Below are positions 17,746-42,293 of a stretch of 53,465 bases of DNA, one piece after another (the stretch's first letter is position 1; each line of letters opens with the position of its first letter). The translations under genes and the position numbers were made by a program. Under the pieces are notes generated by a model. It was given only the letters and a program-made list of their open reading frames with translations, was not told where the DNA came from and made no database searches. The DNA comes from an uncultured Erythrobacteraceae bacterium (GTDB taxonomy: Bacteria; Pseudomonadota; Alphaproteobacteria; Sphingomonadales; Sphingomonadaceae), in assembly GCA_946482075.1 (NCBI GenBank), contig CAMLQG010000010.1, forward strand, positions 1 to 53,465, given 5' to 3'.

Positions 17746-18159
17746 TCACTCTGGCGGATGCCCCTTCGACTGCAAGGTTTGCAAGTAGGCGACGATCGCC
17801 CGGACATCTGCGTCGTTCAATGGCGCGTGATACACGTCACGCATTTTCAAGACTATTTCGCGCCATTTGTCCGGCGGTAGTTGAGGCTGCACAAGGACCA
17901 TATTGGGTGAATGGCAGGCCAAGCACCTGGCATTCACGACTTCCACATGAGGGCCGTCAGGATAGATCTCGTCGAATGATGGCAGTGTCACATCCTGCGA
18001 AACGAGAGTGAAGCCATTGACACTTAGGCTATCAGTCGGTGCGGACGTATCCACAGGAACCGGGACTTCCCTTGCCCCCGGCGGGCCAATTACAGCCAAG
18101 CCCAGAACTGTGCTCGCAATAACCAGCCCCGAAATCCTTCCGAAAGACAACTTGGCCAC
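17746..18159 (-). CDS. c-type cytochrome, SorB-like subunit of sulfite dehydrogenase
   Basis: A 137-residue periplasmic cytochrome c. The N-terminus has a hydrophobic signal or anchor (GLVIASTVLGLAVIG). The single haem motif is C79-L-A-C82-H83, and Met106 in KWREIVLKMRD is a candidate axial ligand. The rest (LNDADVRAIVAYLQTL) is the usual C-terminal helix of class I cytochromes. The start is the GTG at 18159, two bases after the TAG of the molybdoenzyme gene, so the two are translated together. By analogy with SorA/SorB of Starkeya, it would accept electrons from sulfite oxidation. The exact partner role is inferred from adjacency. Confidence 0.85.
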   Translation of the reverse strand: MAKLSFGRISGLVIASTVLGLAVIGPPGAREVPVPVDTSAPTDSLSVNGFTLVSQDVTLPSFDEIYPDGPHVEVVNARCLACHSPNMVLVQPQLPPDKWREIVLKMRDVYHAPLNDADVRAIVAYLQTLQSKGHPPE

Positions 18160-18161
18160 CG

Positions 18162-19394
18162 CTACACGGCCATGATCGTCGTGATTTCGACGTTGGAGCG
18201 CATGAAGCCGCTCGGATTCCAGATCGGCGTGATGGACTGAGTAACGCCCGATTGATTGGTGCACTTGGCCATCAAGGCGATAGGCCCGGGGCGCTTTAGC
18301 GGTACCCGCGCATCCCAGCGACGGAAACTGTACTTTCCGTGGTCCGGTCCAAGGTCCGCAATCCGCCAGGTTCGCCCGTGATCGCTCGATACTTCCACAC
18401 GAGCAACTCCCGTGCCTCCACCCATCGCAATGCCCCCGATCGGTATGATCGGTTCGAAGGCAATTTCCTGGCCTTCCTCAAGGCTGGTGACCCAACTCCT
18501 CGGAACCATCCTGTTGATCGGCAATGTTGGGAAACCGTGCGCGCCCGGTTCGACATTCGCTCCGGGCGTATCCGGGATCTTGTAGGCTTTCGCCATCCAG
18601 TATCGATCGTCGGGCACTTCAAGCACCTCGATCTCGTTCAGCATTTTCATCCAATAGGTGGAGTACCAACCGGGAACCACCAATCGCAGCGGAAACCCGT
18701 TCAGCAATGGCAGCTGCGTGCCGTTCATTCCGTAGGCCAGCATCACTTCACCATCGCGGCAATGATCTATGCTGAGCGCTTTGGTGAAATCTGGCGCATC
18801 GGGCATTAGCGGTCGGTCAAGCCCACCGAAGCGCACCGCGACCGCATTAGGTTTCACCCCGGCAAGATCAAGCACATGGCGCAGGCTCACGCCCAGCCAA
18901 AGGGCATTTCCCATCGCCCCGTGAGACCACTGCGCGCCCGGCACTCGTGGCCTGAACAGACCACGAGAGTTTCCTGAACATTGATTTACTGCAGCAATCT
19001 CCATGCGTGGAAGGCGCATCAGATCGGCCAGGCCCAACGATAGCGGGCGGTTTATGGCGCCGCCCACCTGGAGGCGAAACTCTCGCACATTGATAGCCGT
19101 CGGGATGTCGCCCCAGTGCCAGCGCACGAAAAACTGATCGTTCGGTGTGAATATCTCACGGTCGAATACGTGCATCGGCGTTTCAAGCAGCGGTGGATGG
19201 GCCCGCTGCAGGATCATCTCCCCTTTACCAGGAAAGTCGGAAGTCAAACGCCGCTGGGACGGCCCACCCGGAAGATGCAGATCCGCGAAGCCCGTCGTAG
19301 CTGCTGGCAGGACAAGACCGGACGCGCCAGCTGCCATGGCTTTCAGCAACCGCCGCCGAGCGATCGCAAACGCCACCACCTCGTCGATCTGCAC
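18162..19394 (-). CDS. molybdopterin sulfite dehydrogenase, SorA-like, Tat-exported
   Basis: Sulfite oxidase-family enzyme (Mo cofactor domain plus dimerisation domain) that oxidises sulfite to sulfate in the periplasm. A twin-arginine leader ARRRLLKAMAAGASG is followed by the molybdenum-binding Cys in AAVNQCSGNSRG, then SIDHCRDGEVMLAYGMNG, GFPLRLVVPGWYSTYWMKML and the C-terminal VEVSSDHGRTWRIADLG. No haem domain is fused; the cytochrome is encoded just downstream. I prefer GTG 19394, which has GAGGA seven bases upstream and gives a short Tat n-region. A longer frame to GTG 19487 lacks a ribosome-binding site. This enzyme would clear sulfite made by the dioxygenases. Confidence 0.9.
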   Translation of the reverse strand: MQIDEVVAFAIARRRLLKAMAAGASGLVLPAATTGFADLHLPGGPSQRRLTSDFPGKGEMILQRAHPPLLETPMHVFDREIFTPNDQFFVRWHWGDIPTAINVREFRLQVGGAINRPLSLGLADLMRLPRMEIAAVNQCSGNSRGLFRPRVPGAQWSHGAMGNALWLGVSLRHVLDLAGVKPNAVAVRFGGLDRPLMPDAPDFTKALSIDHCRDGEVMLAYGMNGTQLPLLNGFPLRLVVPGWYSTYWMKMLNEIEVLEVPDDRYWMAKAYKIPDTPGANVEPGAHGFPTLPINRMVPRSWVTSLEEGQEIAFEPIIPIGGIAMGGGTGVARVEVSSDHGRTWRIADLGPDHGKYSFRRWDARVPLKRPGPIALMAKCTNQSGVTQSITPIWNPSGFMRSNVEITTIMAV

Positions 19395-19542
19395 GAACCG
19401 TTCCTCATCTTCAATTCGATCGAAGCAAGCCGGGCGTAGCCATCGGCCTACAGGCCTTCGCCCGCCTCTCAGCGCTTCAAGATTCACATCGCGATAACGC
19501 CGTCATGCGTGCGAGAAATGGGCAAGCGAGCCAATCGCCAGA

Positions 19543-20385
19543 CTAATGCACGAAGAGCTTCTCTTCGGTGCCAAGCTGCACAGCGGAGTCGGATTCAGGG
19601 AACGCGACAACGCGATGCATGACCCTGGGAAAGGCGCGGTCGAGGACCAGATAATGTTGGGTAACCGTGTTGTCCCATATGACCACGGTTCCGACCTCCC
19701 ACGACACGCGCAGGAGGAATTCGTGATACTTGGTCTGCTGATAAAGGAACTTAAGCAGTAGATCGCTCTCGTCTGGCCGCATGTTCTTGATCGACCGAGT
19801 ATACTCGCGGTTGACGTAGAGCGACTTTCGGCCGGTTTCCGGATCGACGAGGACAACGGGATGCTCGACCGGCGCGATATGCGCATGATCGGGTCCCCAG
19901 GAATGGATCGCCGTCTGCTGCTCCAGGAACGTGCGCATTGGCTCAGACAGGGCAGCGAAAGCCGCTTCCATATCGGCGAAAACCGTATCACGCCCATAGT
20001 CTGGAATGGTCACGGCCTGCAAAGCGCTGATGCAACGGGGATCGACCCGCGTTGATCCGTCGGTATGCCAGCTATCCACAAGTGGGAGATCCGCACTGTT
20101 GGAATGCAGGACCATCACCCCGGGAACCCCGTCGAGGTTCTTGTGTATCGGGTGAAATGTCTCGGGGGTCCCATAGGCGTGCCCGATATTCAGGAGGTCG
20201 TGCGGCGAAACCTCCGCCTCTCCCTTCAGCACCACAACCTTGTATCGCTTCAGCGCGTCACGGAGGAACTGCTTCCAATCTGAGCTCCGGAAATCACTTT
20301 GTGCCCCCGCCCTGATCCGAAGACCGAACGTTCCAGTGATCGGTGTTGCCGAAGCATCTTCCGGCACTTTCAGTTTTAAACTCAT
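19543..20385 (-). CDS. TauD/TfdA-family 2-oxoglutarate dioxygenase (paralogue 1)
   Basis: Fe(II)/2-oxoglutarate dioxygenase of 280 residues. The iron facial triad is H107-x-D109 (WHTDGS) and H244 (TQHYLV); R258 (VMHRV) would bind the 2-oxoglutarate carboxylate. Relatives such as TauD hydroxylate a sulfonate next to sulfur, which then falls apart to an aldehyde and sulfite; others act on sulfate esters or aryloxy acids. The ATG at 20385 has a strong AAGGAGA site. It lies 43 bases after the TonB receptor and 148 bases before sorA on the same strand, so its product may be sulfite. It is most like the dioxygenase at 32666-33472. Substrate unknown. Confidence 0.9.
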   Translation of the reverse strand: MSLKLKVPEDASATPITGTFGLRIRAGAQSDFRSSDWKQFLRDALKRYKVVVLKGEAEVSPHDLLNIGHAYGTPETFHPIHKNLDGVPGVMVLHSNSADLPLVDSWHTDGSTRVDPRCISALQAVTIPDYGRDTVFADMEAAFAALSEPMRTFLEQQTAIHSWGPDHAHIAPVEHPVVLVDPETGRKSLYVNREYTRSIKNMRPDESDLLLKFLYQQTKYHEFLLRVSWEVGTVVIWDNTVTQHYLVLDRAFPRVMHRVVAFPESDSAVQLGTEEKLFVH

Positions 20386-20428
20386 TTTTCGTCTCCTTGA
20401 GACAATTCGATATGATCTAGACGATGGC

Positions 20429-22942
20429 TCAGAAACGCACAGTGCCCTGTATGGTAACGGTTCGAGGCTCGGTCACGCTTCCCAGGAAATCGCCTTCAAA
20501 TGCCGTTGCGCTGCCCGTGCGTCCTCCGGTCAGAGCATTGGCGAAACTGTGGGTTACCCGAAGCTTCTGCGTGAGATTGGTGCCGATAAGAGCTAGCTCC
20601 CACTTGTCCTCAGGTCCGCGCAGCGCAGCCGTGGCGTTGAGCAGCCAATATCCCTTCTGAAGGGCTCGCGGGTTTTGGGAAGGATCAGGTGTGTAGGAGC
20701 TACGGTAATTCCCATCGCCGGAAATCGAGAAGCTCAATCCACCACCGATCTCGTGCTCATAAGTTGCCCCAATGTTACCACTCCATTTCGAAGAACGAGT
20801 GAGCGGGCGGCCGCTTAGGTCCTGCGCGTTGCCAGTTTCTCCGGGCAGGATCGGCCTCACCATAACCTTCCCGTCGACTGCGGTTGCTCTGAAGGCGCAT
20901 CCCTTGGCCGGCGTTTGGCCGGTAAAGCATGGAGCGTTTTCGAACGACGTGTAGTGCTGATCACCGTAGTTCACGGCGGCGCGCAACTGCAGCCCGGGCA
21001 CCGCACGCGGTTCGAACTGAGCGCTCAGCTCAACGCCCTTGGTAACCGCCGTGCCCGCATTGGTGACGCGATAAGTGAGAGTTTCACCGTCGAACGCCGA
21101 TACCTGAAGGTCCTGGTACTTGTAGTGGTAGAGCGCGAGATCGAGAGAGAGCTGGCGATCGACAAGAATACCCTTGAAGCCGACTTCGCCACCTTCGACC
21201 TTGACCTGGTCATAGGATACGTCGCCAAGTGTCGTGCGTCCGCCCGAGATAATGCCCAATCCAAAATCGAAGCCGCCGGACTGGAAACCCTTCTTGTAGG
21301 TTCCATAGAACGTCGTATTCGGGCTCGGCTTGTACCGTATCGCGACTTCAGGAGAGAAATTCTTCCAGGATTTCTCGTCGGGTGTAATAGCCACTTCAAA
21401 TGTGTTCGGGTTGAATGCGTAAGGCTGCGAGATCGCCTTGATCGACTTGTTCTCCCACGAATATCGTCCGCCAGCCGTAATCTGAATTTGCGACGACAGG
21501 TCAAGGATCGCCTGACCAAACACCGAATACGCCTCAACCTTCATCGTATTCGTGTGATTTATGAATACGAAGACGTCCTTTCGACCAACGACTTCGCTAG
21601 CTGGAGGCGCCCAGATGGACGATCCCGGGTGAAAATTCTTGATGTGCTGATAATATCCGCCGACCAGAAAATTAAATGGTCCGTCGAAAGACGACAGAAC
21701 CCGTAATTCCTGCGACCATTGATCAATACTTACATTTTCAAGAGATTGGAGATTGGCAAGATCACCCAACCATGTAGTGCCGGTCGCAAATTCCTTGAGC
21801 TTGTAATATCCGCTAGTCGATGAGATCGTGATCGTGTCCGAAGGCTGGAAGTTCATGCTCAAAGAGGTCAAAAGCTGCGAGCTGTTCACATGCTGAACCC
21901 CATCGGCCAAACGAGCGTCGAACTTGGCTATCTCCGGATTGACGAGAGGTTCGTTGAAGTTCCGATCAAGCTTGCAATCTCGTGAGCCGGCGCTGCCTAG
22001 AGCGAGCACCCATTGTGGTGCACCGTTTGCGCAGGAATGAAACTGATTGCCTGCCCCCAAGCCTCCTAGTTGTCGCTGTCGACCATAAGCAATCTTCAGC
22101 TTGGCATCGAATGCGCCATCGCCGGATTCGAAAGCAAGCGTGCCTCGAACGAAGAGCTCCTTACGATGGGGCCAGCTTGTAACCTTGTCATTACCAAGGC
22201 CGGGGAGTGTGCTCTCTCCAGTGCCACCGAGTGAAGCAGGAACGACAACCGCCGGGATGGGTTTTGCATCGTTCTTGAACCAGCCATTGCTCTCGCCATA
22301 ATAACCCACAACCCTGATGCCGAGTGTCTCGGTGAGCGGCGTAGAAATCATCCCTTCTGCGTATTTTAGCTCGTTAGCGAATTCGTATCCTCCACGGATG
22401 CTCGCTTCGAACTTGTCACCGGGATTTGCCGTATCGATCGAGATCACACCGGCTGGACTGTTCTTGCCGAAGAACAGGGACTGAGGGCCCTTCAAGACCT
22501 GGACGCCCGCCAGATCTCGCAGACCCATTCTGAGAATATTGGCCTGACTGAAGAAGATGCCGTCCACCACGATCCCCACGGCCTGATCGGTCGCCGGAGA
22601 TCCGGAGGGCGATCCGATGCCACGCAGATTGAGAACGCCGGCGCCGGTATTGGCATTGCCCCCGACCATCAGTCCGGGGACCTGCTTCGCGACCTGGGAA
22701 ACTGTCGTGATGTTGTACCGAGCAATATCCTCCTGGCTTACTGCCGCTATGACAACGGGCACATCCTGGCTCGCTTCGTCTCGCCGCCGCGCGGTCACGA
22801 TAATTTCCTGGACGCCACCGCTTGAAAATTGTGCCGGTTGCTGAGCCGGGACGTCTTGCGCCGCTGCGATGGCCGCGCCTCCGAATGCCAATGGCAACGC
22901 ACCAAACCAGAATAACGATTTCCGGGTAATTCTAACGGTCAC
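20429..22942 (-). CDS. TonB-dependent receptor of the island
   Basis: An 837-residue outer-membrane active transporter. A signal peptide (LPLAFGGAAIAAAQ) is followed by the TonB box-like QEIIVTARRR. The plug shows DVPVVIAAVSQEDI, NLRGIG, VGIVVDGIFFSQ and VQVLKGPQSLFFGKNSPAGVI, and the barrel ends TVTIQGTVRF. This is the broad TonB class that sphingomonads use for aromatic and other organic substrates rather than the siderophore subclass. The start is GTG 22942 with AGGAGGGG upstream. It sits between two dioxygenase genes on the same strand, so it probably imports their substrate or a precursor; this is inference. Confidence 0.92.
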   Translation of the reverse strand: MTVRITRKSLFWFGALPLAFGGAAIAAAQDVPAQQPAQFSSGGVQEIIVTARRRDEASQDVPVVIAAVSQEDIARYNITTVSQVAKQVPGLMVGGNANTGAGVLNLRGIGSPSGSPATDQAVGIVVDGIFFSQANILRMGLRDLAGVQVLKGPQSLFFGKNSPAGVISIDTANPGDKFEASIRGGYEFANELKYAEGMISTPLTETLGIRVVGYYGESNGWFKNDAKPIPAVVVPASLGGTGESTLPGLGNDKVTSWPHRKELFVRGTLAFESGDGAFDAKLKIAYGRQRQLGGLGAGNQFHSCANGAPQWVLALGSAGSRDCKLDRNFNEPLVNPEIAKFDARLADGVQHVNSSQLLTSLSMNFQPSDTITISSTSGYYKLKEFATGTTWLGDLANLQSLENVSIDQWSQELRVLSSFDGPFNFLVGGYYQHIKNFHPGSSIWAPPASEVVGRKDVFVFINHTNTMKVEAYSVFGQAILDLSSQIQITAGGRYSWENKSIKAISQPYAFNPNTFEVAITPDEKSWKNFSPEVAIRYKPSPNTTFYGTYKKGFQSGGFDFGLGIISGGRTTLGDVSYDQVKVEGGEVGFKGILVDRQLSLDLALYHYKYQDLQVSAFDGETLTYRVTNAGTAVTKGVELSAQFEPRAVPGLQLRAAVNYGDQHYTSFENAPCFTGQTPAKGCAFRATAVDGKVMVRPILPGETGNAQDLSGRPLTRSSKWSGNIGATYEHEIGGGLSFSISGDGNYRSSYTPDPSQNPRALQKGYWLLNATAALRGPEDKWELALIGTNLTQKLRVTHSFANALTGGRTGSATAFEGDFLGSVTEPRTVTIQGTVRF

Positions 22943-23068
22943 TGGCCCCTCCTGATGTTATCGTTGAACTCTTTAATTTCGGCTGACCTACCGAGAGACG
23001 AAAGATCGCTCCGGGCTTTGCGTGGCCTCTTAGATTGATGGCGACCTTCCGCGAGAACCGCGTCGCGA

Positions 23069-23092
23069 CCTATCGATAATTTTTAAGATAGG
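23069..23092. promoter_or_regulatory. A+T-rich inverted repeat upstream of the TonB receptor
   Basis: Six-bp arms CCTATC / GATAGG surround 12 A+T-rich bases (gataatttttaa), about 127 bases upstream of the GTG of the TonB receptor and inside the 204-base gap after the second dioxygenase gene. It could be an operator for the island's LysR protein. This is a guess from position and symmetry. Confidence 0.35.
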
Positions 23093-23146
23093 ACTTTGCC
23101 GTTCCTCAATCGGTCGGGCGAAGCCTCTCGGTGTCGTCGGCTCGCG

Positions 23147-24040
23147 CTATTGGGCAGCGGCCGCGCGCGATTGTAGAGCGCTGTCCAAGCCGATCGGAGA
23201 AGATGCGGTGAAGGAAATTCGGCGCATCACCCGCGGTTCGGGCGCGAAGTCCCTTACCCCGTAGTGCTGCGAGGAACGGTTGTCGAAAATCGCGATGTCG
23301 CCCATCTGCCATTGCCATCGGATCGTGTTTTCCGGTCGCGTGATATAGTAATGCAGTAATTCGTAGATCGCATTGGTCGCCGTCCTCGGAAACCCGTCGA
23401 AGGATTCGACGAAGTTGCCTAGCAGCAGCGATCTTTCGCCCGTTTCTGGATGCACGCGCACGACAGGGTGCAGCGTGGCTTTGCCGATCCCTTTGTTGTA
23501 CTCCCTGTAGTTGGCCTTCCCCGCTTCCGTGACATCGGGCACCAGCAGCGTGAGCGGCAACGCCGAATTGTGCGTCGCCCAGAGCCTATCCGCCATTTCG
23601 CGCAAGGGCTCGGGAAGTTCGGCATAGGCCGCAGCGGTATTCGACCAGCAAGTGTCGCCGCCGCGCGTGGGCAGGAGTTCAGGATAAAGCATCCCACCAT
23701 CGATGAAGCTCTCGAGAAAGGAGAAGTCGGTGTGCCAGTGATCCGCCCTGAACTCCTTTGTGGAATTCATCTCGTAGACATAGCGGTTCCCATCGGGAGC
23801 CGTGGCGAGGGGGTGGCCTACCGGATCTCCATAGAGCTCCGCAAAGCCTTCAAAATCGGACGAGCTTCCCGTCTGGTTGCGCAGGAAGACGACCTTGTGC
23901 TCGAGCACGGCCTTCCTGATAACCTCGACGACTTCTCGATCGAGTCCTCCCGACAGCTGGACATTCTCCACCAACGCGCCGATCCGCCCGCCGATCGGTT
24001 TGACCTGACAGGCCACCTTGTCCTTATCAAGAACGCTCAT
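23147..24040 (-). CDS. TauD/TfdA-family 2-oxoglutarate dioxygenase (paralogue 2)
   Basis: A 297-residue dioxygenase with the facial triad H103-x-D105 (HWHTDFSF) and H259 (SSQHYGV), and the 2-oxoglutarate Arg in PRVMRRISF (about R273). The segment LLPTRGGDTCWSNTAAAYAELP is characteristic of the AtsK/TfdA side of the family, so a sulfate ester or aryloxy-type substrate is as possible as a sulfonate. The ATG at 24040 is preceded by GAGAGG. It is divergent from the MFS gene, and a 20-bp palindrome stands 18 bases upstream of its ATG. It may head the unit that continues with the TonB receptor 204 bases downstream. Confidence 0.9.
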   Translation of the reverse strand: MSVLDKDKVACQVKPIGGRIGALVENVQLSGGLDREVVEVIRKAVLEHKVVFLRNQTGSSSDFEGFAELYGDPVGHPLATAPDGNRYVYEMNSTKEFRADHWHTDFSFLESFIDGGMLYPELLPTRGGDTCWSNTAAAYAELPEPLREMADRLWATHNSALPLTLLVPDVTEAGKANYREYNKGIGKATLHPVVRVHPETGERSLLLGNFVESFDGFPRTATNAIYELLHYYITRPENTIRWQWQMGDIAIFDNRSSQHYGVRDFAPEPRVMRRISFTASSPIGLDSALQSRAAAAQ

Positions 24041-24058
24041 TTCGATACCTCTCCATCC

Positions 24059-24108
24059 CGCCGGGTTCGAACCCGGCGCTCAGTCAATATCCCGTCGAGC
24101 TTCGACGG
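24059..24108. promoter_or_regulatory. two palindromes in the divergent dioxygenase / MFS promoter region
   Basis: A perfect 20-bp palindrome, CGCCGGGTTC and its complement, occupies 24059-24078. A second inverted repeat, CCGTCGA-gct-TCGACGG, occupies 24092-24108. Both lie between the divergent starts of the dioxygenase (24040) and the MFS gene (24302). They are plausible operators. The first also resembles a tRNA T arm, but no tRNA surrounds it. Confidence 0.45.
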
Positions 24109-24301
24109 CGGTCAATTGAGAAATCGCAATGGGCGTGTTGAGCCGGTTTCAACGCGCGATGTTAATGGCGCCAATCCCCCTCTTGAGGAAATTTCGCTAG
24201 AACGCGTTGGGACGAAATGCGAGTTCAGCGGAATAAGAAATGCTTCGGTCTCGCGTCTACGTGCGAGCAGGGTGAGGCGCGAATGCGTTCGTTCCGGAGC
24301 G

Positions 24302-25762
24302 GTGGGCAAGGATTGGACGAAATTGGCGATCAAGCAACTCCTGAACGGCTCTCCAGCGAGTATCCTGTTCATCCTCGTCACCGCACAGACGATCATCTCG
24401 CTCGATTTCTCGCTCGTCACGATCGCCCTTCCCTCGATCGAGGCGAAGTTCGGCCTTTCACCGATCACCGCACAGTGGATCCTTACAAGCGACATCGTGG
24501 TCTATGGCGGCTTCATGATCGTAGGGGGCCGGTTCGCTGACACTTATGGAGAGCGAAAGGCGCTTACGATCGGCCTTAGTCTCTTTCTCGCAGGAAGCCT
24601 CATCAACACATTCTCAAACGGCCTCGCCCTTCTGCTTTTGGGGCGGGCGACACAGGGTTTCGGCGCGGCTTTCACCTTCCCGACAACCATCGCACTGCTT
24701 ACCCGCACGTTCGTTGAGGGGAACGCCAGGTTCAAGGCATTGACCATAAGCACCGCCGCTCAAGCGACCGGCGTACCGCTCGGAACGATGGCAGCAGGTT
24801 ATCTGGTGACGACCTTCGGGGGCCCTTCAGCCTTCTTCCTGAACGTGCCGATCTGTGCGCTGCTCCTTTTCATGGTTCGTTTCGGCCTTGCCGAAAGGCC
24901 ACCTCTAGAAGGAGCAAACGGCAAAATCCCGCTGACGAGCGCAATCGTCCTGGCGATCGGCATGGGGCTGCTGATCCAAAGCGCACTGGCAATCGTAGCC
25001 AAAGACGAGCAGACTCGAGCGCTGGCGCCCCTAGCTTTCCCGGCAAGCGTGGTAGTCCTGTCGCTCTTCGTTTATCTTCAGAAGCGATCCAGCAACCCGC
25101 TCTTTTCGTTCTCGATATTGAGGATCGAAAATCTCGCGATGTATATCCTGATCACCGCCTGCATGACCCTTGTCGGCAAGGGGCTCATCGCCTTGTCCAA
25201 CATCTCGTTTCAACAAGGTCTTGGATACTCTCCATGGGAAGCTTCGCTGGCTTTGTTCCCGATGGCAGTGAGTTCTATCATGCTCGTTTTCCTTACTCCG
25301 TTCATCTCACGTCCCCTGCTGCGGAAATCACGGATCTCGTTGCTGGTTGCGTTCGTCGTCATGGTAGCGCTTCACCTGACCTTGGCTAATACACCAGGTG
25401 CCTTCGCTGCCGCAGCGCTACTCACGATACTATTAATCCAGCCCTTCGTGTCCGTCACTGGCAACAATCTCGGCGTGAGCGAGATCATGGCGCGCGCCCC
25501 TGCCGCGAGCCACGGCGTCGTCGCCGCTATGCTTTACACCACGATCCAGATTGTCGGCGGGCTCGGACTGGCGCTCATGATCGCCGCCAAGGATCAAGGC
25601 CCGGGCGTCGTCGATGAGTTTCAGCGCTTCTCACCAGGTTTCATGGTGGCGGCTGGCGGCGGTTTGATCGCAGCGCTGCTGATCATCTTCGCGATCAAGC
25701 CGTTTGCCTTCGCTAAACGTTCTGACGAAGGACTAACCAAAGCGAGGACCGAGGCTCCCTGA
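24302..25762 (+). CDS. MFS transporter, DHA2-like (about 14 membrane segments)
   Basis: A 486-residue major facilitator. From its N-terminus there is a first helix ILFILVTAQTIISLDFSLV, the MFS motif GGRFADTYGERKAL between helices 2 and 3, GRATQGFGAAFTFPT, and GTMAAGYLVTTFGG in the antiporter-motif position. Further helices run to near the end. Length and helix number fit the 14-TMS DHA2/EmrB group, usually drug or metabolite exporters but also known for uptake. The start is uncertain: GTG 24302 (used here) or TTG 24323. It is divergent from a dioxygenase and convergent with the rhodanese gene 17 bases away. It may move the organosulfur substrate or a product. Confidence 0.88.
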   Translation: MGKDWTKLAIKQLLNGSPASILFILVTAQTIISLDFSLVTIALPSIEAKFGLSPITAQWILTSDIVVYGGFMIVGGRFADTYGERKALTIGLSLFLAGSLINTFSNGLALLLLGRATQGFGAAFTFPTTIALLTRTFVEGNARFKALTISTAAQATGVPLGTMAAGYLVTTFGGPSAFFLNVPICALLLFMVRFGLAERPPLEGANGKIPLTSAIVLAIGMGLLIQSALAIVAKDEQTRALAPLAFPASVVVLSLFVYLQKRSSNPLFSFSILRIENLAMYILITACMTLVGKGLIALSNISFQQGLGYSPWEASLALFPMAVSSIMLVFLTPFISRPLLRKSRISLLVAFVVMVALHLTLANTPGAFAAAALLTILLIQPFVSVTGNNLGVSEIMARAPAASHGVVAAMLYTTIQIVGGLGLALMIAAKDQGPGVVDEFQRFSPGFMVAAGGGLIAALLIIFAIKPFAFAKRSDEGLTKARTEAP

Positions 25763-25779
25763 TCGCCAGGGCGATTTAC

Positions 25780-27345: not shown

Positions 27346-27357
27346 GTTGTTACTCCG

Positions 27358-27957: not shown

Positions 27958-28304
27958 CGGCGCCTTCCGCGCAGCAATCCACGCCGGCTGGCAGGCGCTT
28001 TCCCCCTCTCGTCTCTAGGACATCATTTGAACGGCCATGCAACATCATCGAATGGGAAGCGCCTATCGCACGCGCACCAAGGCCCCGGAATTCAATAATT
28101 TTAACATCACCGATGAGCCAACCTAAAGAGCCAGGCATCCTAAAAAAAACTCACCCCACTCTTTATGATTACTCAATTGACCGGGACCGCGATGTTGCTG
28201 TGATTGTTACCTGCGGAGCAGAACCCGCATCTAGAACATCTTGCCATCAAGGTCGGAGTTCCGAGGGGACGATTGACCGCGAAGGTCTTCGAAACAGGAA
28301 AAAA
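27958..28304. promoter_or_regulatory. divergent promoter region of thiol dioxygenase and GST genes
   Basis: 347 bases with no gene. The two genes start outward from it, so both promoters lie here. It contains a spaced inverted repeat, AGGCGCTTTCCC at 27993-28004 and GGGAAGCGCCT at 28054-28064, and an A+T-rich stretch (aattcaataattttaac, near 28090). These are candidate regulator sites without further support. Confidence 0.4.
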
Positions 28305-28958
28305 ATGAGCATCGAACTTTTCTATGCACCCGGGAGTTGCGCGTTTGCCGTCCTTACCTCGCTTGAACAAGCCGAAGCGAGCTATTCCGCGGTGAAGCTG
28401 GATCTGGCTGGCGGAGATCAGAGGTCACCTGAGTTTCTGCAGATCAATCCTCTCGGCCGCGTGCCGGTTCTGATAGCGGAGGGGCGCACGATTACCGAAG
28501 CCATTGCTGCACTGACCTACGTGGCCGCAAGCAATCGCGATGCAGAGCTCCTTTCGTTCGATGATCCCGGAGCTCTCGCCAGCGAGTACGAGATGCTCGC
28601 CTGGTTCTCCACGAGCGTTCACCTGCACATCGCGCAGATATTTCGCGGAGAACGTTTCGGCGATGATGAAGATGTCCGGCGCCTGATAAAGGAAAACGGC
28701 GTCAAGCAGTTCGCTGAAGATCTGGTCGCCCTGGAGCAGCGCTGTGCGGCCGGTAATGCCTATTCCGCAGACCGCTTCACGGTCGTGAACGCGTTCGGCC
28801 TCGTGATCTGGCGCTGGGCGCAGCGGCTTGAATGCGACACGGGCGCGCTGCCGCTCTGGTCGGCCATCGTCGCCAAGGATCTCGCCAGGCCCGCGGCGGT
28901 CCGCGCAACAGAGCGCGAGGCCGGAGGAGAGCGGTGGATAAAGCTGGCTGCTGCATAA
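28305..28958 (+). CDS. glutathione S-transferase, beta-class-like
   Basis: A 217-residue cytoplasmic transferase with an N-terminal thioredoxin fold (1-78) and an all-helical C-terminal domain. The start MSIELFYAPGSCAFAVL matches the beta-class signature with a catalytic Cys (C12). NPLGRVPVL supplies the cis-Pro, and EGRTITEAIAAL stands where the glutathione-contacting E-S pair usually lies (here E-A). ATG 28305 is chosen because AGGA precedes it and family similarity begins there. It is convergent with the LysR gene. A role in conjugating or thiol-cleaving the island's substrate is inference. Confidence 0.88.
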   Translation: MSIELFYAPGSCAFAVLTSLEQAEASYSAVKLDLAGGDQRSPEFLQINPLGRVPVLIAEGRTITEAIAALTYVAASNRDAELLSFDDPGALASEYEMLAWFSTSVHLHIAQIFRGERFGDDEDVRRLIKENGVKQFAEDLVALEQRCAAGNAYSADRFTVVNAFGLVIWRWAQRLECDTGALPLWSAIVAKDLARPAAVRATEREAGGERWIKLAAA

Positions 28959-28986
28959 AGGCTAGAGCGCGCCGGAGCAGTCTTTC

Positions 28987-29820
28987 CTAGATCGTCTGAA
29001 TCGCGCCTCTGATCAGTTCCGCCAGGCTCTCGATTGCAGGATGCGGCGACTGACGGATTCCCAGATTATAGGAGATCTTGGGTAGCGGTTTCAATTCGAG
29101 GTCGAGCACCGGGTGACGCTTGCCAAGGAAGGCCTGCGTCCGCGTCGTGATCGCAAGGCCGCTTTCGACCGCTGCGCGCAGCACGGAGATGCTCGGTGTT
29201 TCGATCACTACGGAATGCGCCTTGCCCAGTTCCTCCAGCGCATCCATCGCTGCTTCCCGGAACAGGCAAGGCTTGGACATGAGGGCGATCGGGAGAACCG
29301 GCAAAGCCAACAGCTCAGGGTCCCCCAGCCAAACGAGGTCGGCATCCATGATGGAAGCCTCGTCATCGTGTTCGCCCAGGTAAAGAGCGATATCCAGCAG
29401 ATCGGATTGGAGCATTTCGCAAAGATCGGCAGAGTTCGCGATCTTGATCTCCATCTGAATATCCGGGTTCGATCGCTTGAACCGGGTGAGTACGTTGGAA
29501 AGGATTACGTCTGCGAAATCCTGCACCATGCCGATCCGTACCGGCCCGGTGATCCGCCCTCCGAGATTTGCGATTACCTCATCGTTGAGCGCCAACACCT
29601 TCCGCGCATATTCCAGCAGCGTCTTGCCTGCCGGAGTGAGCACGGTGGTGTTCTGGTAGCGTTGGAAGATCGGCTGCTGGATAATGTCGGCTAGCCGTTT
29701 CATCTGCAGGCTGAGCGCGGATTGCGTCAGGAAGATATACTCGCTGGCACGCGCCATCGATCCCGTGTCGACGATCGTCACAAAGCTACGCAGCAAATCC
29801 ATCGGAAGGTTAACGCGCAA
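28987..29820 (-). CDS. LysR-family transcriptional regulator
   Basis: A 277-residue regulator with an N-terminal winged helix-turn-helix (DLLRSFVTIVDTGSMARASEYIFLTQSALSLQMKRLAD, first 55 residues) and a periplasmic-binding-protein-like effector domain (from about 90). The start is a TTG at 29820 or the ATG at 29802; neither has a strong ribosome-binding site. It is the only regulator inside the island and sits between the two gene blocks, so it is the best candidate to control the dioxygenase operons. By family habit it would respond to a small-molecule inducer, possibly the organosulfur substrate; the effector cannot be read from sequence. Confidence 0.9.
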   Translation of the reverse strand: MRVNLPMDLLRSFVTIVDTGSMARASEYIFLTQSALSLQMKRLADIIQQPIFQRYQNTTVLTPAGKTLLEYARKVLALNDEVIANLGGRITGPVRIGMVQDFADVILSNVLTRFKRSNPDIQMEIKIANSADLCEMLQSDLLDIALYLGEHDDEASIMDADLVWLGDPELLALPVLPIALMSKPCLFREAAMDALEELGKAHSVVIETPSISVLRAAVESGLAITTRTQAFLGKRHPVLDLELKPLPKISYNLGIRQSPHPAIESLAELIRGAIQTI

Positions 29821-29936
29821 GGCTACCCCACTCTCCTCTCAACACGCAGATGTTTTCTGCAAACTCACGATAGGACAACATCACCGAGGTTCTCAATCCC
29901 CACCGCACTTACCAACTTGATGTTGGCCTAACGCAT

Positions 29937-29965
29937 ATGCCGCCGGCCAGCGTGACCGGCGGCAT
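29937..29965 (-). terminator. strong hairpin after the dioxygenase-aldolase operon
   Basis: A perfect 10-bp stem, ATGCCGCCGG / CCGGCGGCAT, with a 9-base loop lies 53 bases beyond the stop of the dioxygenase at 30019-30885. No T tract follows on the minus strand, so an intrinsic terminator is only likely. A smaller CCAAC-ttgat-GTTGG repeat stands beside it at 29912-29926. Confidence 0.5.
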
Positions 29966-30018
29966 CGCCCCTCAAGCCGATTTGCTAGAATGTCGCTCCT
30001 TTTGCGTCGCGGATGCCG

Positions 30019-30885
30019 CTAAACCCCCACGCTTTCTCGCTGTTCGGTTGTGACTGGCGACAGACTGCCCCTGATCGTCATTCGCCGCATTACCCGACGC
30101 ACTCGATAGTCGGTCACGCCATAATGCAGCGTCGAACGGTTATCCCAGATCGCGATATCGCCCATGCGCCAGCGATGGCGCACCTGGAATTCCAGGCTCG
30201 ACGTGGTGTGCGAGTACAGGAATTCGAGAAAGTGCCTGCTCTCGGCTTCCGAGAACCCGATGATGTGCCGCGTGAACATCCGATGGACGAAAAGCGAGCG
30301 CCTTCCAGTTTCGGGATGGATAAGGGCCACGGGGCGGATGCGCCCCGCAATATCCTGTTCGCTGGGTCGCTTCGTTGGGTGCAGTCCGACCAGGTCCTTC
30401 GCGCTGAGGATCGGCGCAGAATGGAGTGCTTCCAGCCGATCGCAAAGATCCCTCAAACTATCCGGCAGGGCATCGTAGGCAGCGTACATGCTGGCAAACG
30501 CCGTATCCCCCCCGACCGGCGGAATATCGAGCGGCGCCAGGATCGACGCTGTGGTGGGAAACTCCAGATAGGTTCCGTCGATGTGCCACTGGTCCGCAGT
30601 AGTCCCGCGAGGCCGGCTACCGTCGAAGGAAATTTGCTGAACCTGTTCCAGATCCCCGCCCAGATTGTTGTGGAACGGATGGATATCAAGTTCGCCGAAA
30701 TTTTGACCGAAGCGCTTGAATTGCTCGGGCGACAAATGTTGATCGCGCAGGAAAATCACCTGCCGCTCAAGCCAGACGGCCCGCAGTTGGGCCATGGTCT
30801 CGGCCGCAATTGGTTGCGTAGCATCGATGCCATGAATTATGGCGCCGATCGCGGGGGTCAGCGGTTCGACTTCAAATGAACTCAT
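30019..30885 (-). CDS. TauD/TfdA-family 2-oxoglutarate dioxygenase (paralogue 3)
   Basis: A 288-residue dioxygenase with the triad H101-x-D103 (WHIDGTYL) and H254 (TLHYGV), and the 2-oxoglutarate Arg in RRVMRRMT (R267 or R268). The first loop reads WHID instead of the WHTD of the other three copies. The motif IPPVGGDTAFASMYAAYDALP is TauD-like. ATG 30885 has GAGAGATGG upstream. It is the last gene of a four-gene unit, starting 31 bases after the class II aldolase gene, so its reaction is probably in the same pathway as the aldolase and dehydrogenase. Substrate unknown. Confidence 0.9.
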   Translation of the reverse strand: MSSFEVEPLTPAIGAIIHGIDATQPIAAETMAQLRAVWLERQVIFLRDQHLSPEQFKRFGQNFGELDIHPFHNNLGGDLEQVQQISFDGSRPRGTTADQWHIDGTYLEFPTTASILAPLDIPPVGGDTAFASMYAAYDALPDSLRDLCDRLEALHSAPILSAKDLVGLHPTKRPSEQDIAGRIRPVALIHPETGRRSLFVHRMFTRHIIGFSEAESRHFLEFLYSHTTSSLEFQVRHRWRMGDIAIWDNRSTLHYGVTDYRVRRVMRRMTIRGSLSPVTTEQRESVGV

Positions 30886-30916
30886 GCCATCTCTCCAGTT
30901 CGAGCAAGTCCATCAT

Positions 30917-31684
30917 TCAGCAAGCGAAGCCAGGCGAGCGCCTCTCCACGCGACGAACCAGGGCCGCCCACGCAGCGTCGTACACCGATTGACCGCCGCC
31001 CGCGGCGACCAGCCCGGCAACCTGTTCCTGTGCAGCATCTGGAGCGTCGCAGACCCCATCGCGCCCTGCGCTCAAGGCCCGAATTTGTACCGCGCATGCA
31101 CGTTCCAGCATGTAGATACCGAACCACGCCTCGCCAGCGCTTGCGCCAACCGCAAGAGAGCCGTGCTTCTTCAGAAGCATGACGCGCTTGTTGCCAAGAT
31201 CCGCGACAAGGCGCTCTCGCTCCGCGAGATCAAGAGCGATGCCTTCATATTCATGATAGGCAAGCTGGGGGATCATGGTGAGCGCGGCTTGCCCGATCGG
31301 CATCAGTCCTTCTCTTTGCGCAGCCACGGCCATGGCGTCGAGCGTGTGGAGATGGATGACGAAATGCGCGTCCGCTCGTGCAGCATGGATCGCTGAATGG
31401 ATTACATAGCCCGCCGCGTTCAATTCCCCGCTTGCGCCATCTTCGACAAGATTGCCTTCGAGATCCACCTTCAGCAGATCGGAAGCCGTGATCTCATCGA
31501 AACCGAGATGAAAGGGATTGATCAGGAAATGACCTTCCGGACCGGGAACCCGGGCGGAGATGTGAGTAAAAATAATGTCGTCCCAGCCCTGCAGCGCAAC
31601 CAGCCGATACATCGCCGCCAGATCGACGCGGACGCGCCATTCCTCGGCAGGCATCGCAAGCCTGGAGGCCGAAGACGCAACCAT
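30917..31684 (-). CDS. class II aldolase/adducin-family protein
   Basis: A 255-residue zinc-type aldolase/adducin domain protein. The metal-binding HLH of VIHLHTLDAMA and the third His in LLKKHGSLAVG are present. Ahead of them stands VIHSAIHAARAD, where classical fuculose-phosphate aldolase has a catalytic Glu; this substitution is common in the adducin-like branch, so aldolase activity is not assured. I chose ATG 31684 because AAGGA stands eight bases upstream; an in-frame TTG at 31690 is too close to it. It lies between the hydroxyacid dehydrogenase and a dioxygenase in one operon, suggesting processing of a carbon skeleton after sulfur removal. Confidence 0.87.
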   Translation of the reverse strand: MVASSASRLAMPAEEWRVRVDLAAMYRLVALQGWDDIIFTHISARVPGPEGHFLINPFHLGFDEITASDLLKVDLEGNLVEDGASGELNAAGYVIHSAIHAARADAHFVIHLHTLDAMAVAAQREGLMPIGQAALTMIPQLAYHEYEGIALDLAERERLVADLGNKRVMLLKKHGSLAVGASAGEAWFGIYMLERACAVQIRALSAGRDGVCDAPDAAQEQVAGLVAAGGGQSVYDAAWAALVRRVERRSPGFAC

Positions 31685-31708
31685 ACTCAATTTCCTTTCA
31701 CGCAGTTG

Positions 31709-32638
31709 TCAGGCATCGACTGCGCTTCCGTGGACTCTCCACCGCATCAGTCGCCCCGCCCCAAAGTTCCCGAGATTCTCGGTGAACATTGCGACGAGGT
31801 CGGGCAGAACGTGATCGTCGAGCGAAGCCGAGTGCGGAGTGAGATCGACCTGGGGATGGGAATAGAAAGGATGGCCTGCCGGCAAGGGCTCGGGATCGGT
31901 CACGTCCAAAGAGGCCAGCGCGATTCTCTCACCGTCCAGGGCTTCCAGCAATGCGTCCTGATCGATGAGTGAACCGCGAGCCACATTGACCAGATGCATC
32001 CCATACCGTGCACAAGAAAGCACGGCTGCATCCACCATCTTGCGTGTTTCACCAGTCGCGGGCGCGGCCAGAACGACATGGTCGCTCTGCGCGAAGAGAT
32101 CCGCAAGGCTAACCGCTCGTTGCACACCTTGCGGCATTGGACGGTGGGATTTTCGCAGGGCGATCACATTCATGCCCAGCGCCAACGCCCGCTTGGCGAG
32201 TGCCCCGCCGATGGCGCCCATCCCGACTACGCCGAGCGTCCGTCCTTGCAAGCGGCCAGCCTGTACCGGCTTCCATTGTTCCGGGGCACTGACCGCAAGT
32301 TCTCGAAGACGACGGGCGTGAGACAGCATCGTCGCCAGCGCAAATTCCGCGAGTGGGATTGCAGAAACGCCCGGCGAATGCGTGACGGTGACGCCTTCGA
32401 ACAACCAGTCCGGATAACCGTCCAAACCCGAAGAAAGCAGATGAACCCAACGTAGCGAGAACGGCCATCCCACCGGTTGTGTCGTTTCGCTGCCCAGCGT
32501 TGGTCCGGGGGCCGCGAGCAAAATCTCTTGGCCCTTCGACAGCTCCGCGAGCGTAGCCAGCGGCCCGACGTCAATCCCCGCGGCTGCATGGCTGAAGAGA
32601 TCACAGACCGCCGGTGGCAAGAGCGCTGCTATATTCAT
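31709..32638 (-). CDS. D-2-hydroxyacid dehydrogenase (NAD(P)-dependent)
   Basis: A 309-residue dehydrogenase of the D-isomer 2-hydroxyacid family, which interconverts 2-hydroxyacids and 2-oxoacids. It has the dinucleotide loop GRTLGVVGMGAIGG, the catalytic Arg in VNVARGSLID, the Glu in DVTDPEPLP and the His in VDLTPHSAS. The glyoxylate/hydroxypyruvate reductase branch fits best by length and motif spacing. It lies 27 bases after a dioxygenase gene and 24 bases before the aldolase gene. A sulfolactate-like or similar hydroxyacid would suit the setting, but that is a guess. Confidence 0.9.
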   Translation of the reverse strand: MNIAALLPPAVCDLFSHAAAGIDVGPLATLAELSKGQEILLAAPGPTLGSETTQPVGWPFSLRWVHLLSSGLDGYPDWLFEGVTVTHSPGVSAIPLAEFALATMLSHARRLRELAVSAPEQWKPVQAGRLQGRTLGVVGMGAIGGALAKRALALGMNVIALRKSHRPMPQGVQRAVSLADLFAQSDHVVLAAPATGETRKMVDAAVLSCARYGMHLVNVARGSLIDQDALLEALDGERIALASLDVTDPEPLPAGHPFYSHPQVDLTPHSASLDDHVLPDLVAMFTENLGNFGAGRLMRWRVHGSAVDA

Positions 32639-32665
32639 GGTGGAAACCGAACTCAGCTAGGTCGA

Positions 32666-33472
32666 TCAGGCCGGTTCCACCATCACGCGGTGCATGCGCC
32701 GCTGATAGCGGGAATCCTGCACGATGTAGTGCTGCGTGATCTGGTTATCCCAGACTGTGATGGTGCCCGGCTTCCACACCACGCGGACGTGATATTCGGG
32801 AATGTAGACGCGCTTGAACAGGAATTGCAGCAGCATCTCGCTTTCGTTCGGATGCAGCCCTTCGATCTCGCGCGTGTAGCCGCTGTTGACGTAGAGGCCG
32901 AACCGTCCGGTGACGGGATTCTCAACCGTGGCGGGATGCGAGACGGGCGGCGCTTCCGGCTTCGACACGCCCCAGGATTGCAATGCGTCGCTATCCTTCA
33001 GGAACGCCTGCAATTTTGGCGACAGTCCTTCAAAGACCGCCTCCATGTCCGCGAAGATCGTGTCGCGGCCGTTAGGCGGAATATCGATCGCCTGGAGGAA
33101 GCTTAGCCAGCGTGTCTGTTGCCGGGTCGCACCATCGGTATGCCAGGTGTCCCGACCATAGGAACCGTTGGCGACAATTACCTTCACGGCCGGCACATCT
33201 GGGAAGTCTTCATGATCCGGATGCGGTGCCGTTTCGGGCTTGCCGAAATGGCTCGCAAATCGCGCAAGATCATGCGCGTCCACGCCAAACTGCTCACGGA
33301 AGACGAGAACCTTGCGTTCACGCAGGAGACGATCGATCTTCTCCACCATGCTTTGCTCGATCGGCTTGGTCATGTCGACACCGACGATCTCCGCACCACA
33401 AATCGGAGTGATCGGTTTGACCTCCAGATCGTTTGCCATTGCTTGGCGCATATCCGCGATAGAATCAGGCAT
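32666..33472 (-). CDS. TauD/TfdA-family 2-oxoglutarate dioxygenase (paralogue 4)
   Basis: A 268-residue dioxygenase with triad H111-x-D113 (WHTDGATR) and H248 (TQHYIV), and R262 (RMHRV) for 2-oxoglutarate. It shares long stretches with the dioxygenase at 19543, for example GRDTxFADMEAxF, SWG, TQHY and MHRV, so these two are recent paralogues or orthologues joined in one island. ATG 33472 has GAGAGG upstream. It heads the unit dioxygenase-dehydrogenase-aldolase-dioxygenase; a palindrome lies about 95 bases upstream. Substrate unknown. Confidence 0.9.
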   Translation of the reverse strand: MPDSIADMRQAMANDLEVKPITPICGAEIVGVDMTKPIEQSMVEKIDRLLRERKVLVFREQFGVDAHDLARFASHFGKPETAPHPDHEDFPDVPAVKVIVANGSYGRDTWHTDGATRQQTRWLSFLQAIDIPPNGRDTIFADMEAVFEGLSPKLQAFLKDSDALQSWGVSKPEAPPVSHPATVENPVTGRFGLYVNSGYTREIEGLHPNESEMLLQFLFKRVYIPEYHVRVVWKPGTITVWDNQITQHYIVQDSRYQRRMHRVMVEPA

Positions 33473-33565
33473 TTGACCTCTCCAGTGTCTGTTTTTGCGA
33501 GCCGAAGAGCCCTACTTCGTTCCCCGAAAATCTCGTTCTCAAGCAAGATAAGTCAAATGAGTTTT

Positions 33566-33578
33566 GCTCACAGTGAGC
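33566..33578. promoter_or_regulatory. palindrome upstream of the dioxygenase-aldolase operon
   Basis: GCTCAC-A-GTGAGC is a perfect 13-bp palindrome in the 150-base gap between the exporter gene and the operon that starts at 33472. On the minus strand a TTGACT (about 33551-33556) lies between it and the gene and could be a -35 element. It is a candidate operator only. Confidence 0.35.
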
Positions 33579-33622
33579 TTGAGAGACAGCTCCGGCCACG
33601 ATCGCGGTGAGATGGCCATTTC

Positions 33623-34729
33623 CTAGAGAAGAAGCTTAGCGCAAAGGAAGGATAAGGTTGCGCACCAGGCAGTCGCGCCTGCGATAACGATAAGCGGCCG
33701 GACGCCATATCCAGCAAGCTGCGCCATCGGCGAACGAATACCCGCAGCCGTGAGAGCAATGACCACGAAAATCGACCCCAGCTCGGCAAGTCGAAGCGCC
33801 ACTTCGCCCGGAACGATCCCGGTGGAGTTGATGACGACGACCGCAAGAAATCCCATGACGAACCAAGGCAATCCGAACACGCCCTCGCGTCGCTTCGATC
33901 TAACACCGAAGCTCATGCTGATGATCGCCAGCAGCGGTGCCAGCAAGCATACCCGCGTAAGTTTGATGATGGTAGCGATCCCGCCAGCCTGATGCGAGAA
34001 GGTGTAACCTGCGCCCAACGCCTGGGCGACGTCGTGGATCGCCGCGCCAAGAAAGAACCCAGCTTCGCGGTCCGTCATACCCGCTTCCCTGGCAATGATC
34101 GGATAAGTGGACATCGCAATGGCGCTCAGCGCGGCGATGCCGATGAGGACGATCGAAAGCTCGGCCCGTTTCGTCCGCCGTTCGGTAAGCACTGCGAAGA
34201 TCGCCAATGCGGCCGAAGCCCCGCAGATCGCGACAGCTCCCGCCGCAAGAATGCCGAACCCGACATCGAAGCGGCATGCGCGTGCGATGACGATCCCGCC
34301 CGTGATGGTCAACGCTGCCACGAGCGTGACCGCAAGAAGCACGCTTGGCCCGAGATTGCCGATCTGCCCGGTCGTGACGCGCGCGCCCAGCAGCACGATC
34401 CCGATCTTCAGCACTGTTCCCGCGGCAAAGCTCAGGCCCGGTGCAAGCTTCACGTCCTCGGCAAGGAAATTCAGGGACAGGCCGACCAGGAACGCCATGA
34501 GCGTAAGCGGAACACCGTAGTGATCCGAAATGAAGGCGGCCGCCAGCGTCGCCAGTGCGGTAACGACCAATCCGCTCTTCAGATCGCGCCAACGCGCTGC
34601 GGGCTTTCCTTCAATATCACAGTATAGATCCGCGACAGAAATGGCCTGCGTGCGATGGCCGGCATTCGGCCTGAACGCCGCCGAGTTCTCGAACGTCAAT
34701 CTTCCGTCGCGCTTGTCGATGTCACTCAT
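33623..34729 (-). CDS. YeiH-family putative sulfate exporter
   Basis: A 368-residue integral membrane protein with about ten hydrophobic helices, of the family often named 'putative sulfate exporter' (YeiH, UPF0324). Recognisable parts are GLSLNFLAEDVKLAPGLSFAAGTVLKIGIVLLGARV, AICGASAALAIFAVLTERR, and FFLGAAIHDVAQALGAGYTFSHQAG. The ATG at 34729 has GGAGG nine bases upstream; the in-frame ATG at 34774 adds 15 low-value residues. It lies upstream of the dioxygenase operon on the same strand. With the sulfite dehydrogenase in the same island it would remove sulfate made from organosulfur compounds; export of sulfate by this family is not firmly proven. Confidence 0.88.
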   Translation of the reverse strand: MSDIDKRDGRLTFENSAAFRPNAGHRTQAISVADLYCDIEGKPAARWRDLKSGLVVTALATLAAAFISDHYGVPLTLMAFLVGLSLNFLAEDVKLAPGLSFAAGTVLKIGIVLLGARVTTGQIGNLGPSVLLAVTLVAALTITGGIVIARACRFDVGFGILAAGAVAICGASAALAIFAVLTERRTKRAELSIVLIGIAALSAIAMSTYPIIAREAGMTDREAGFFLGAAIHDVAQALGAGYTFSHQAGGIATIIKLTRVCLLAPLLAIISMSFGVRSKRREGVFGLPWFVMGFLAVVVINSTGIVPGEVALRLAELGSIFVVIALTAAGIRSPMAQLAGYGVRPLIVIAGATAWCATLSFLCAKLLL

Positions 34730-36109: not shown

Positions 36110-36129
36110 TATTATGATTTCATTGTATT

Positions 36130-42290: not shown

Positions 42291-42293
42291 CTC

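Follow-up and report, generated by a model that had tools for sequence, protein, structure and literature searches.

A genomic island in a sphingomonad tRNA-Arg gene with a putative organosulfur uptake-and-oxidation locus

Do sulfur genes that lie side by side in a tRNA-associated island serve a single pathway, and is their combination new? A stretch of 53,465 nucleotides from an uncultured Erythrobacteraceae bacterium (contig CAMLQG010000010.1 of assembly GCA_946482075.1; here called the window) raises this question. A preliminary description of the window had proposed that positions 17746–34729 hold a complete and portable organosulfur mineralisation programme: four TauD-like dioxygenases, a SorAB-like sulfite dehydrogenase, a thiol dioxygenase with a rhodanese, further enzymes, transporters and a regulator. 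Every gene named there was found with Pfam and NCBIfam profiles at or near the position given for it. Our analysis points to a narrower answer. The island cargo is probably one organosulfur uptake-and-oxidation or scavenging locus, from which surplus sulfite would be exported and oxidised. What is surprising about it is a swap of oxygenase class together with added sulfite handling, not a complete portable route of mineralisation.

Genes and borders of the island

Domains were assigned by comparing the open reading frames (ORFs) of the island with Pfam and NCBIfam profiles and their curated cut-offs. Gene families, operon-like order and island ends are what can be read from the sequence itself. 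Two genes lie 12 bases apart on the minus strand. The leading one (27358–27957) gave a CDO-type match and encodes a predicted thiol dioxygenase of the 3-mercaptopropionate dioxygenase group. It scored 234–257 bits against the structures 4qma, 6xb9, 3uss/4tlf and 4wvz. Mercaptosuccinate dioxygenase gave only 41 bits, and the top-scoring structure, 4qma, carries no more specific name than 'cysteine dioxygenase type I'. The segments HDH, DIH and SIHVY aligned as the His-x-His iron motif and the Ser-His-Tyr set, the latter of which PMC10966181 gives as a 3-mercaptopropionate dioxygenase feature. By alignment, the protein thus groups with the solved 3-mercaptopropionate dioxygenases. The second gene (25780–27345) encodes a four-domain rhodanese protein with four PF00581 stretches and two Cys residues, only one of which (Cys189) lies within a CxxxxR-type loop.

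Three proteins are candidates for sulfite handling, all encoded on the minus strand. The SorA-like molybdopterin sulfite dehydrogenase (18162–19487, true start probably later) scored 508.6 bits with NF052245 (cut-off 600) and 402 bits with the solved SorA 2blf, to which its molybdenum-binding Cys region NQCSGNSRG aligns. The SorB-like c-type cytochrome (17746–18264, true start uncertain; NF052246 66.5 bits, cut-off 93) keeps the CxxCH haem motif as CLACH. A YeiH-like putative sulfate/sulfite exporter (33623–34774) passed the cut-off of PF03601 with 176 bits and scored 125.5 bits with TIGR00698 (cut-off 232.6).

Four Fe(II)/2-oxoglutarate dioxygenases of the TauD family, again on the minus strand, retain the WHxD motif and share only 24–40% pairwise identity. 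TauD2 (23147–24040) is an AtsK-like alkylsulfatase-type dioxygenase (281 bits to the solved AtsK, versus 149 to E. coli TauD and 156 to Pseudomonas TauD). TauD3 (30019–30885; PF02668 208.5 bits) stands nearest to TauD, with 186 bits to the E. coli enzyme. For TauD1 (19543–20385; PF02668 142.5 bits) and TauD4 (32666–33472; 156.7 bits) the solved relatives are distant (at best 138 and 137 bits, respectively), and these two proteins, 40% identical, are each other's closest match within the island. The nearest public protein among the TauD4 matches listed, 72% identical, lies on a 1.3-kb contig. At E≤1e-45, TauD4 had a match in one of 385 Alphaproteobacteria genomes (G789, 43%); it was rejected as an orthologue, being nearer to TauD3 and to a dioxygenase of strain TomTYG65 and lacking a common neighbourhood. 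The searches for TauD4 at E≤1e-50 (0 of 397 Sphingomonadaceae genomes) and for TauD1 at E≤1e-45 (0 of 249 Caulobacteraceae genomes) had no positive control, and such empty results show nothing. On a Phaeobacter plasmid (L157), a TauD1 relative (36%) is flanked by a LysR gene and an arylsulfatase gene. According to the part of PMC5443232 consulted, tauD occurred in every Novosphingobium strain studied and a taurine transport system in none, so TauD genes as such are ordinary in sphingomonads.

Most of these genes lie in short minus-strand runs. One comprises a TonB-dependent receptor (20429–22942; PF00593/PF07715), TauD1 and the SorA- and SorB-like genes, with gaps of 43 and 55 bases among the first three and overlapping SorA- and SorB-like ORFs as listed; this run would link uptake, dioxygenase and sulfite oxidation. 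The nearest relative of the receptor among the matches listed is 50% identical. A further run holds TauD4, a D-2-hydroxyacid dehydrogenase (31709–32638; PF02826 165 bits), a class II aldolase/adducin-type enzyme (30917–31690; NF005451 329.9 bits, cut-off 207) and TauD3, with gaps of 27, 18 and 31 bases. The YeiH-like gene, a LysR-type regulator (28987–29820; PF00126/PF03466) and TauD2 are on the minus strand as well. Two genes lie on the plus strand, a glutathione S-transferase (GST) gene (28305–28958, start inferred within ORF 28113–28958; PF02798 50 bits) and one for a DHA2/efflux-like protein of the major facilitator superfamily (MFS; 24320–25762, start uncertain within ORF 23450–25762; PF07690).

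Judged by its sequence features, the region 17497–36208 is a coherent integrated genomic island in a sphingomonad tRNA-Arg gene. The insertion site is tRNA-Arg(TCT), called at 36132–36208 on the minus strand, the 3' part of which is duplicated: the left attachment-type repeat (17497–17546) agrees with 36130–36179 in 49 of 50 bases (E 1.3e-19). Integration into a tRNA gene is expected to leave an element on the 3' side of the gene, and since the 3' part recurs at 17497–17546 we placed the element there. It spans about 18.6 kb between the repeats (approximately 17499–36179). Its GC content is 0.583, versus 0.642 in the left and 0.643 in the right flank, the tetranucleotide profile changes close to the same borders, and composition is fairly uniform across the interior. 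Insertion at a tRNA, as first described, is therefore borne out by the repeat and the lower GC. The element reaches beyond the end originally drawn and also takes in a D-amino-acid dehydrogenase stub and a 323-amino-acid ORF.

Portability, in turn, found no backing in an integrase: none was recognised among the island ORFs profiled, and no remnant was recognised among the end ORFs of at least 39 amino acids, which were inspected by eye and two of which were profiled. Just inside the right end, two copies of AAAGTGCAAAGTC stand 22 bases apart (36045–36079, plus strand). The word TGCAAAGT has three occurrences in the whole window, the third at 17573 (minus strand) just inside the left end; each copy lies at most 90 bases inward of a repeat, and the copy at the left end is oriented opposite to those at the right end. 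Because 6 of 100 shuffles also reached at least three matches, the count alone is weak; the placing of the copies, not their number, suggests arm sites of an integrase. The stub (34859–35170, minus strand) covers the C-terminal profile positions 335–405 of 410 and suggests a deletion or rearrangement at the right end. The 323-amino-acid ORF (35138–36109, plus strand) lies beside the tRNA and has a weak OGG-like match (PF21790, 22.2 bits, cut-off 27).

The same tRNA-Arg gene serves as an insertion site elsewhere in Sphingomonadaceae. In genome G070 it harbours a different element of 7 kb (L111, 2107–9225) that has a repeat of 46 bases. The integrase-like ORF of this element (7695–9053, minus strand) adjoins the tRNA; it contains an arm-binding domain and matches the central domain of integrases below the cut-off. 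This ORF occupies the spot at which the island has the 323-amino-acid ORF. The tRNA-QueT flank is conserved in many Sphingomonadaceae (DNA identity up to 84%), and 297 of 298 genomes of this family match the tRNA-QueT query, which includes the tRNA itself, somewhere; this identifies the host as a sphingomonad. None of 12 stretches read (one of only 2.4 kb) had the left-flank genes in place beyond the tRNA; one of them, from Sphingopyxis granuli (L117), has two left-flank genes on the QueT side. Compared with plasmids, island DNA gave only a 342-base Sphingobium piece and two tRNA matches. Outside the island, the right-flank stretch 40001–43000 also has a tetranucleotide profile nearer to that of the island, and 40001–42000 forms a second low-GC patch (0.57–0.58) with an SMP-30-like gene at 40329–41288. 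Beside the left end, a 1677-amino-acid ORF (12266–17299, plus strand) had no NCBIfam match, and the ORFs tested opposite it had no Pfam match.

The neighbourhood in other genomes

We used the rhodanese protein as probe in a scan of genome contigs and kept the best 80 of at least 577 confirmed relatives. Neighbours were counted over the 55 of these 80 loci that measured at least 21 kb; since a match required E≤1e-12 over half of the query, the counts are lower bounds, and those for LysR, TauD and TonB register only seed-like copies. A thiol dioxygenase was present in 52 of the 55 loci, followed by an LLM flavin monooxygenase (39), a substrate-binding protein (37), an ABC ATPase (35), an acyl-CoA-dehydrogenase-like flavoprotein (33) and an ABC permease (31). 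Class II aldolase (19), dehydrogenase (16), GST (9), LysR (8), TauD (3), TonB receptor (3) and YeiH (1) were less frequent, and SorA had no match.

In addition, the rhodanese was found at E≤1e-100 in 23 of 397 Sphingomonadaceae and 37 of 249 Caulobacteraceae genomes. We read 34 of these 60 neighbourhoods, namely all 23 from Sphingomonadaceae and 11 of the 37 from Caulobacteraceae; this set overlaps with the 80 loci at least at S. granuli. The Sphingomonadaceae neighbourhoods held a thiol dioxygenase in all 23 cases, an ABC ATPase in 18, LysR in 15, dehydrogenase, aldolase and TauD in 4 each, YeiH in 1 and SorA in none. For the 11 Caulobacteraceae the numbers were 10 for thiol dioxygenase, 7 each for aldolase and ABC ATPase, 6 each for dehydrogenase and LysR, 3 for GST, 2 for TauD and 0 for SorA. 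Absences among the 34 are weaker evidence because several stretches end at contig ends (down to 8.9 kb). As for the probe itself, 21 of the 23 Sphingomonadaceae matches span only about residues 1–372 of 521, which suggests shorter copies; 33 of the 37 Caulobacteraceae matches extend to residue 521, like the four-domain protein of the window.

A core of thiol dioxygenase, multi-domain rhodanese, LysR regulator, 2-hydroxyacid dehydrogenase, class II aldolase and GST thus recurs, whole or in part. The genomes concerned belong to Caulobacteraceae, Sphingomonadaceae, Pseudomonas and Burkholderiales, and in most cases sulfonate-type ABC transporters and flavin monooxygenases accompany it. The island has neither of these; its core is joined by the four 2-oxoglutarate dioxygenases, the TonB receptor, the MFS protein and the SorAB-like and YeiH-like genes. 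No other neighbourhood searched showed the core together with SorAB-like genes: SorA was missing from all 80 and all 34 (some shortened by contig ends), SorB had no match in any of the 80, and a laxer search of the fetched loci at E≤1e-5 found SorA only in three loci that had been chosen for it. The view that the combination is unfamiliar holds for the whole set, which was not found elsewhere in our searches and of which we found no description in the open-licence literature searched; it does not hold for the core.

Several relatives come close to the island in single traits. The one YeiH match among the 80 loci is in Sphingopyxis; in S. granuli (L032/L121), YeiH-like and GST genes stand directly beside the thiol dioxygenase–rhodanese pair. 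In two sphingomonad loci (L122, L124) no ABC ATPase was detected, and genes for a TonB receptor and an MFS protein lie close to the pair, so the window is not the only case of uptake without an ABC transporter; L122 also has luciferase-type monooxygenases near the pair, which the BLAST count missed. The acyl-CoA-dehydrogenase-like protein of the relatives was considered as a desulfinase and found unsupported: the copy in L001 scored 192 bits with 5gj7 and 54 with 5af7, which we take to be a desulfinase structure, and the S. granuli copy scored 55 bits with 5af7 versus 104 for its best match. This protein is presumably 'SfnB/DszC-like', although DszC itself scores only 37–38 bits.

Proposed function and rival explanations

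Enzymes of the AtsK and TauD families use 2-oxoglutarate and oxygen to cleave sulfate esters and sulfonates, 3-mercaptopropionate-type dioxygenases (MDO) make sulfinates, and SorAB oxidises sulfite outside the cytoplasm. On this basis we infer the substrates, the direction of transport, the flow of sulfite and the regulation. The TonB receptor would let the substrate in. In the cytoplasm, TauD2 would split sulfate esters, and sulfonates would be split probably by TauD1 and perhaps by TauD3 and TauD4; the thiol dioxygenase would convert a small thiol into a sulfinate. Since TauD enzymes are cytoplasmic and SorAB is periplasmic, an exporter would be needed, a role that the YeiH-like protein fits: it would export surplus sulfite, which the SorAB-like pair would oxidise to sulfate in the periplasm. 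LysR would control the gene set. In many relatives the core adjoins sulfonate-type transporter and monooxygenase genes, which supports a single organosulfur locus.

A series of observations weighs against that proposal. The SorA-, SorB- and YeiH-like proteins score below curated cut-offs. None of the dioxygenases reaches the 313-bit cut-off of the taurine dioxygenase profile NF007104 (151.6, 193.6, 232.6 and 169.7 bits for TauD1–4), and TauD1, TauD3 and TauD4 match phenoxypropionate dioxygenases as well. The top named NCBIfam matches of the MFS protein are drug exporters, below cut-off, and it looks like an exporter. The upstream regions of the gene groups revealed no common regulatory word above the level of controls (2 observed, 2–4 in five controls). 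An LLM match was absent at threshold in 16 of the 55 loci, that is, the core does not always stand by sulfonate genes, and on a Sodalis plasmid the pair is accompanied by tripartite tricarboxylate transporter and MmgE/PrpD genes. Finally, in Pseudomonas protegens the level of 3-mercaptopropionate rose on deletion of 3mdo and did not change significantly on deletion of the rhodanese gene (PMC12947264, section 3.4); the rhodanese thus seems dispensable for the first step there.

The claim of completeness is not supported. Profiling of the island ORFs revealed no desulfinase, CoA-transferase, acyl-CoA dehydrogenase or aldehyde-processing gene, and no island gene was recognised that would complete the branch or lead aldehyde products into central metabolism. 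As written, the branch is incomplete, the CoA activation and desulfinase steps being unrecognised among these ORFs. A bolder reading, drawn by analogy with mercaptosuccinate and in our view improbable, would dispense with the desulfinase: in a transferable version of the locus, 2-oxoglutarate dioxygenases would replace the flavin monooxygenases, and the thiol branch would start from a thiol of the 3-mercaptolactate type. The thiol dioxygenase would make 3-sulfinolactate, which the D-2-hydroxyacid dehydrogenase would oxidise to 3-sulfinopyruvate. This compound decays spontaneously to pyruvate and sulfite, and the YeiH-like and SorAB-like proteins would turn the sulfite into periplasmic sulfate. 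If so, the recurrence of dehydrogenase and thiol dioxygenase would mark a widespread unrecognised route.

The locus might instead serve purely assimilatory scavenging when sulfate is short, with the SorAB-like and YeiH-like proteins as mere sulfite protection. Genes for SsuABCD-type sulfonate transporters and flavin monooxygenases are generally associated with sulfur starvation, the core is frequently accompanied in relatives by an LLM monooxygenase (39 of 55 loci) and an ABC ATPase (35 of 55), and the island contained no recognisable carbon pathway. However, extracytoplasmic oxidation of sulfite wastes sulfur, and a SorAB-like pair in the gene run of TauD1 would therefore suit excess sulfite better; we hold scavenging alone to be rather doubtful. 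That the genes are a mosaic, derived separately and collected in a hot spot with no common pathway, seems to us quite unlikely. It would explain why the aldolase is close to most Pseudomonas copies (50–58% identity in most loci with a match, 34% in L024) and far from those of Caulobacter (33–37%), why the four dioxygenases have diverged as far as they have, and why the TonB receptor is only 23–29% identical to those in the 80 loci. Yet LysR, dehydrogenase, aldolase, thiol dioxygenase, rhodanese and GST recur together elsewhere, an aldolase of the window type (59–61%) lies near the pair in L125, L148 and L150, and the island is fairly even in composition.

Xenobiotic breakdown, in which the dioxygenases would cleave aryloxyalkanoate ethers, GST and MFS proteins would detoxify and the sulfur genes would be incidental, draws on the efflux-like MFS protein and on the scores of TauD1 and TauD4, which are about equal for a solved phenoxypropionate dioxygenase (125 and 130 bits) and Pseudomonas TauD (122 and 137 bits). 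We consider it very unlikely: genes for chlorophenols or aromatic rings were not recognised among the island cargo, and sulfur is indicated by the AtsK-like, SorAB-like and YeiH-like genes as well as by the thiol dioxygenase and the rhodanese. Under the preferred reading of one uptake-and-oxidation locus, the recurring thiol dioxygenase–rhodanese neighbourhood can be reassembled in one island with a different class of oxygenase and with sulfite-handling genes, and its dehydrogenase (16 of 55) and aldolase (19 of 55) partners, to which we found no role assigned, become testable members of a sulfur pathway.

Comparison with known systems

The Pseudomonas 3mdo-tst genes (PA2602-PA2603; PMC12947264) belong to the two gene families of the island pair and follow each other as they do there, and the rhodanese copies of the listed Pseudomonas loci are 55–58% identical to that of the island. 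Unlike the island, none of the 80 loci had a SorA or SorB match. Oxidation of a thiol to a sulfinate by a thiol dioxygenase, with later oxidation of sulfite, is described for Variovorax TBEA6 and Advenella in the consulted parts of PMC6370202 and PMC5373536 and resembles our proposal; so does the placing of LysR and rhodanese genes near the Advenella mercaptosuccinate dioxygenase (PMC5373536). Variovorax TBEA6 uses the CoA-transferase Act (or SucCD) to activate 3-sulfinopropionate with CoA and the desulfinase AcdA to cleave the product (PMC6370202), and neither was recognised among the island ORFs. Mercaptosuccinate is an exception to the need for a desulfinase because the sulfinate derived from it decays spontaneously (PMC5373536).

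Two plasmids each share a part of the gene set. On a Sphingomonas naphthae plasmid (L154), SorA (66% identical), SorB, LysR and a transporter stand together as in the island, but the transporter is of the TDT family, and the annotation shows neither a TauD nor a thiol dioxygenase in the 8 kb to each side. The Sphingobium TomTYG65 plasmid (L081) has a TonB receptor, a taurine-type dioxygenase, a rhodanese, a thiol dioxygenase and LysR; unlike the island, it adds sulfonate ABC transporter and alkanesulfonate monooxygenase genes, and its stretch had no match to the SorAB-like, YeiH-like, aldolase or dehydrogenase proteins of the island. Among the neighbourhoods compared, the cluster of Caulobacter, strain SO-S41 and Niveispirillum (L001-L005 and L012) combines LysR, D-2-hydroxyacid dehydrogenase, class II aldolase, TonB receptor, thiol dioxygenase and four-domain rhodanese in one stretch, with GST in all except L001, just as the island does. 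Its aldolases are only 33–34% alike to that of the island, and L001-L005, but not L012, carry a flavoprotein of the acyl-CoA-dehydrogenase fold, of which there was no match among the island ORFs profiled. The cluster also holds ABC transporter genes and flavin monooxygenases, in place of which the island carries 2-oxoglutarate dioxygenases.

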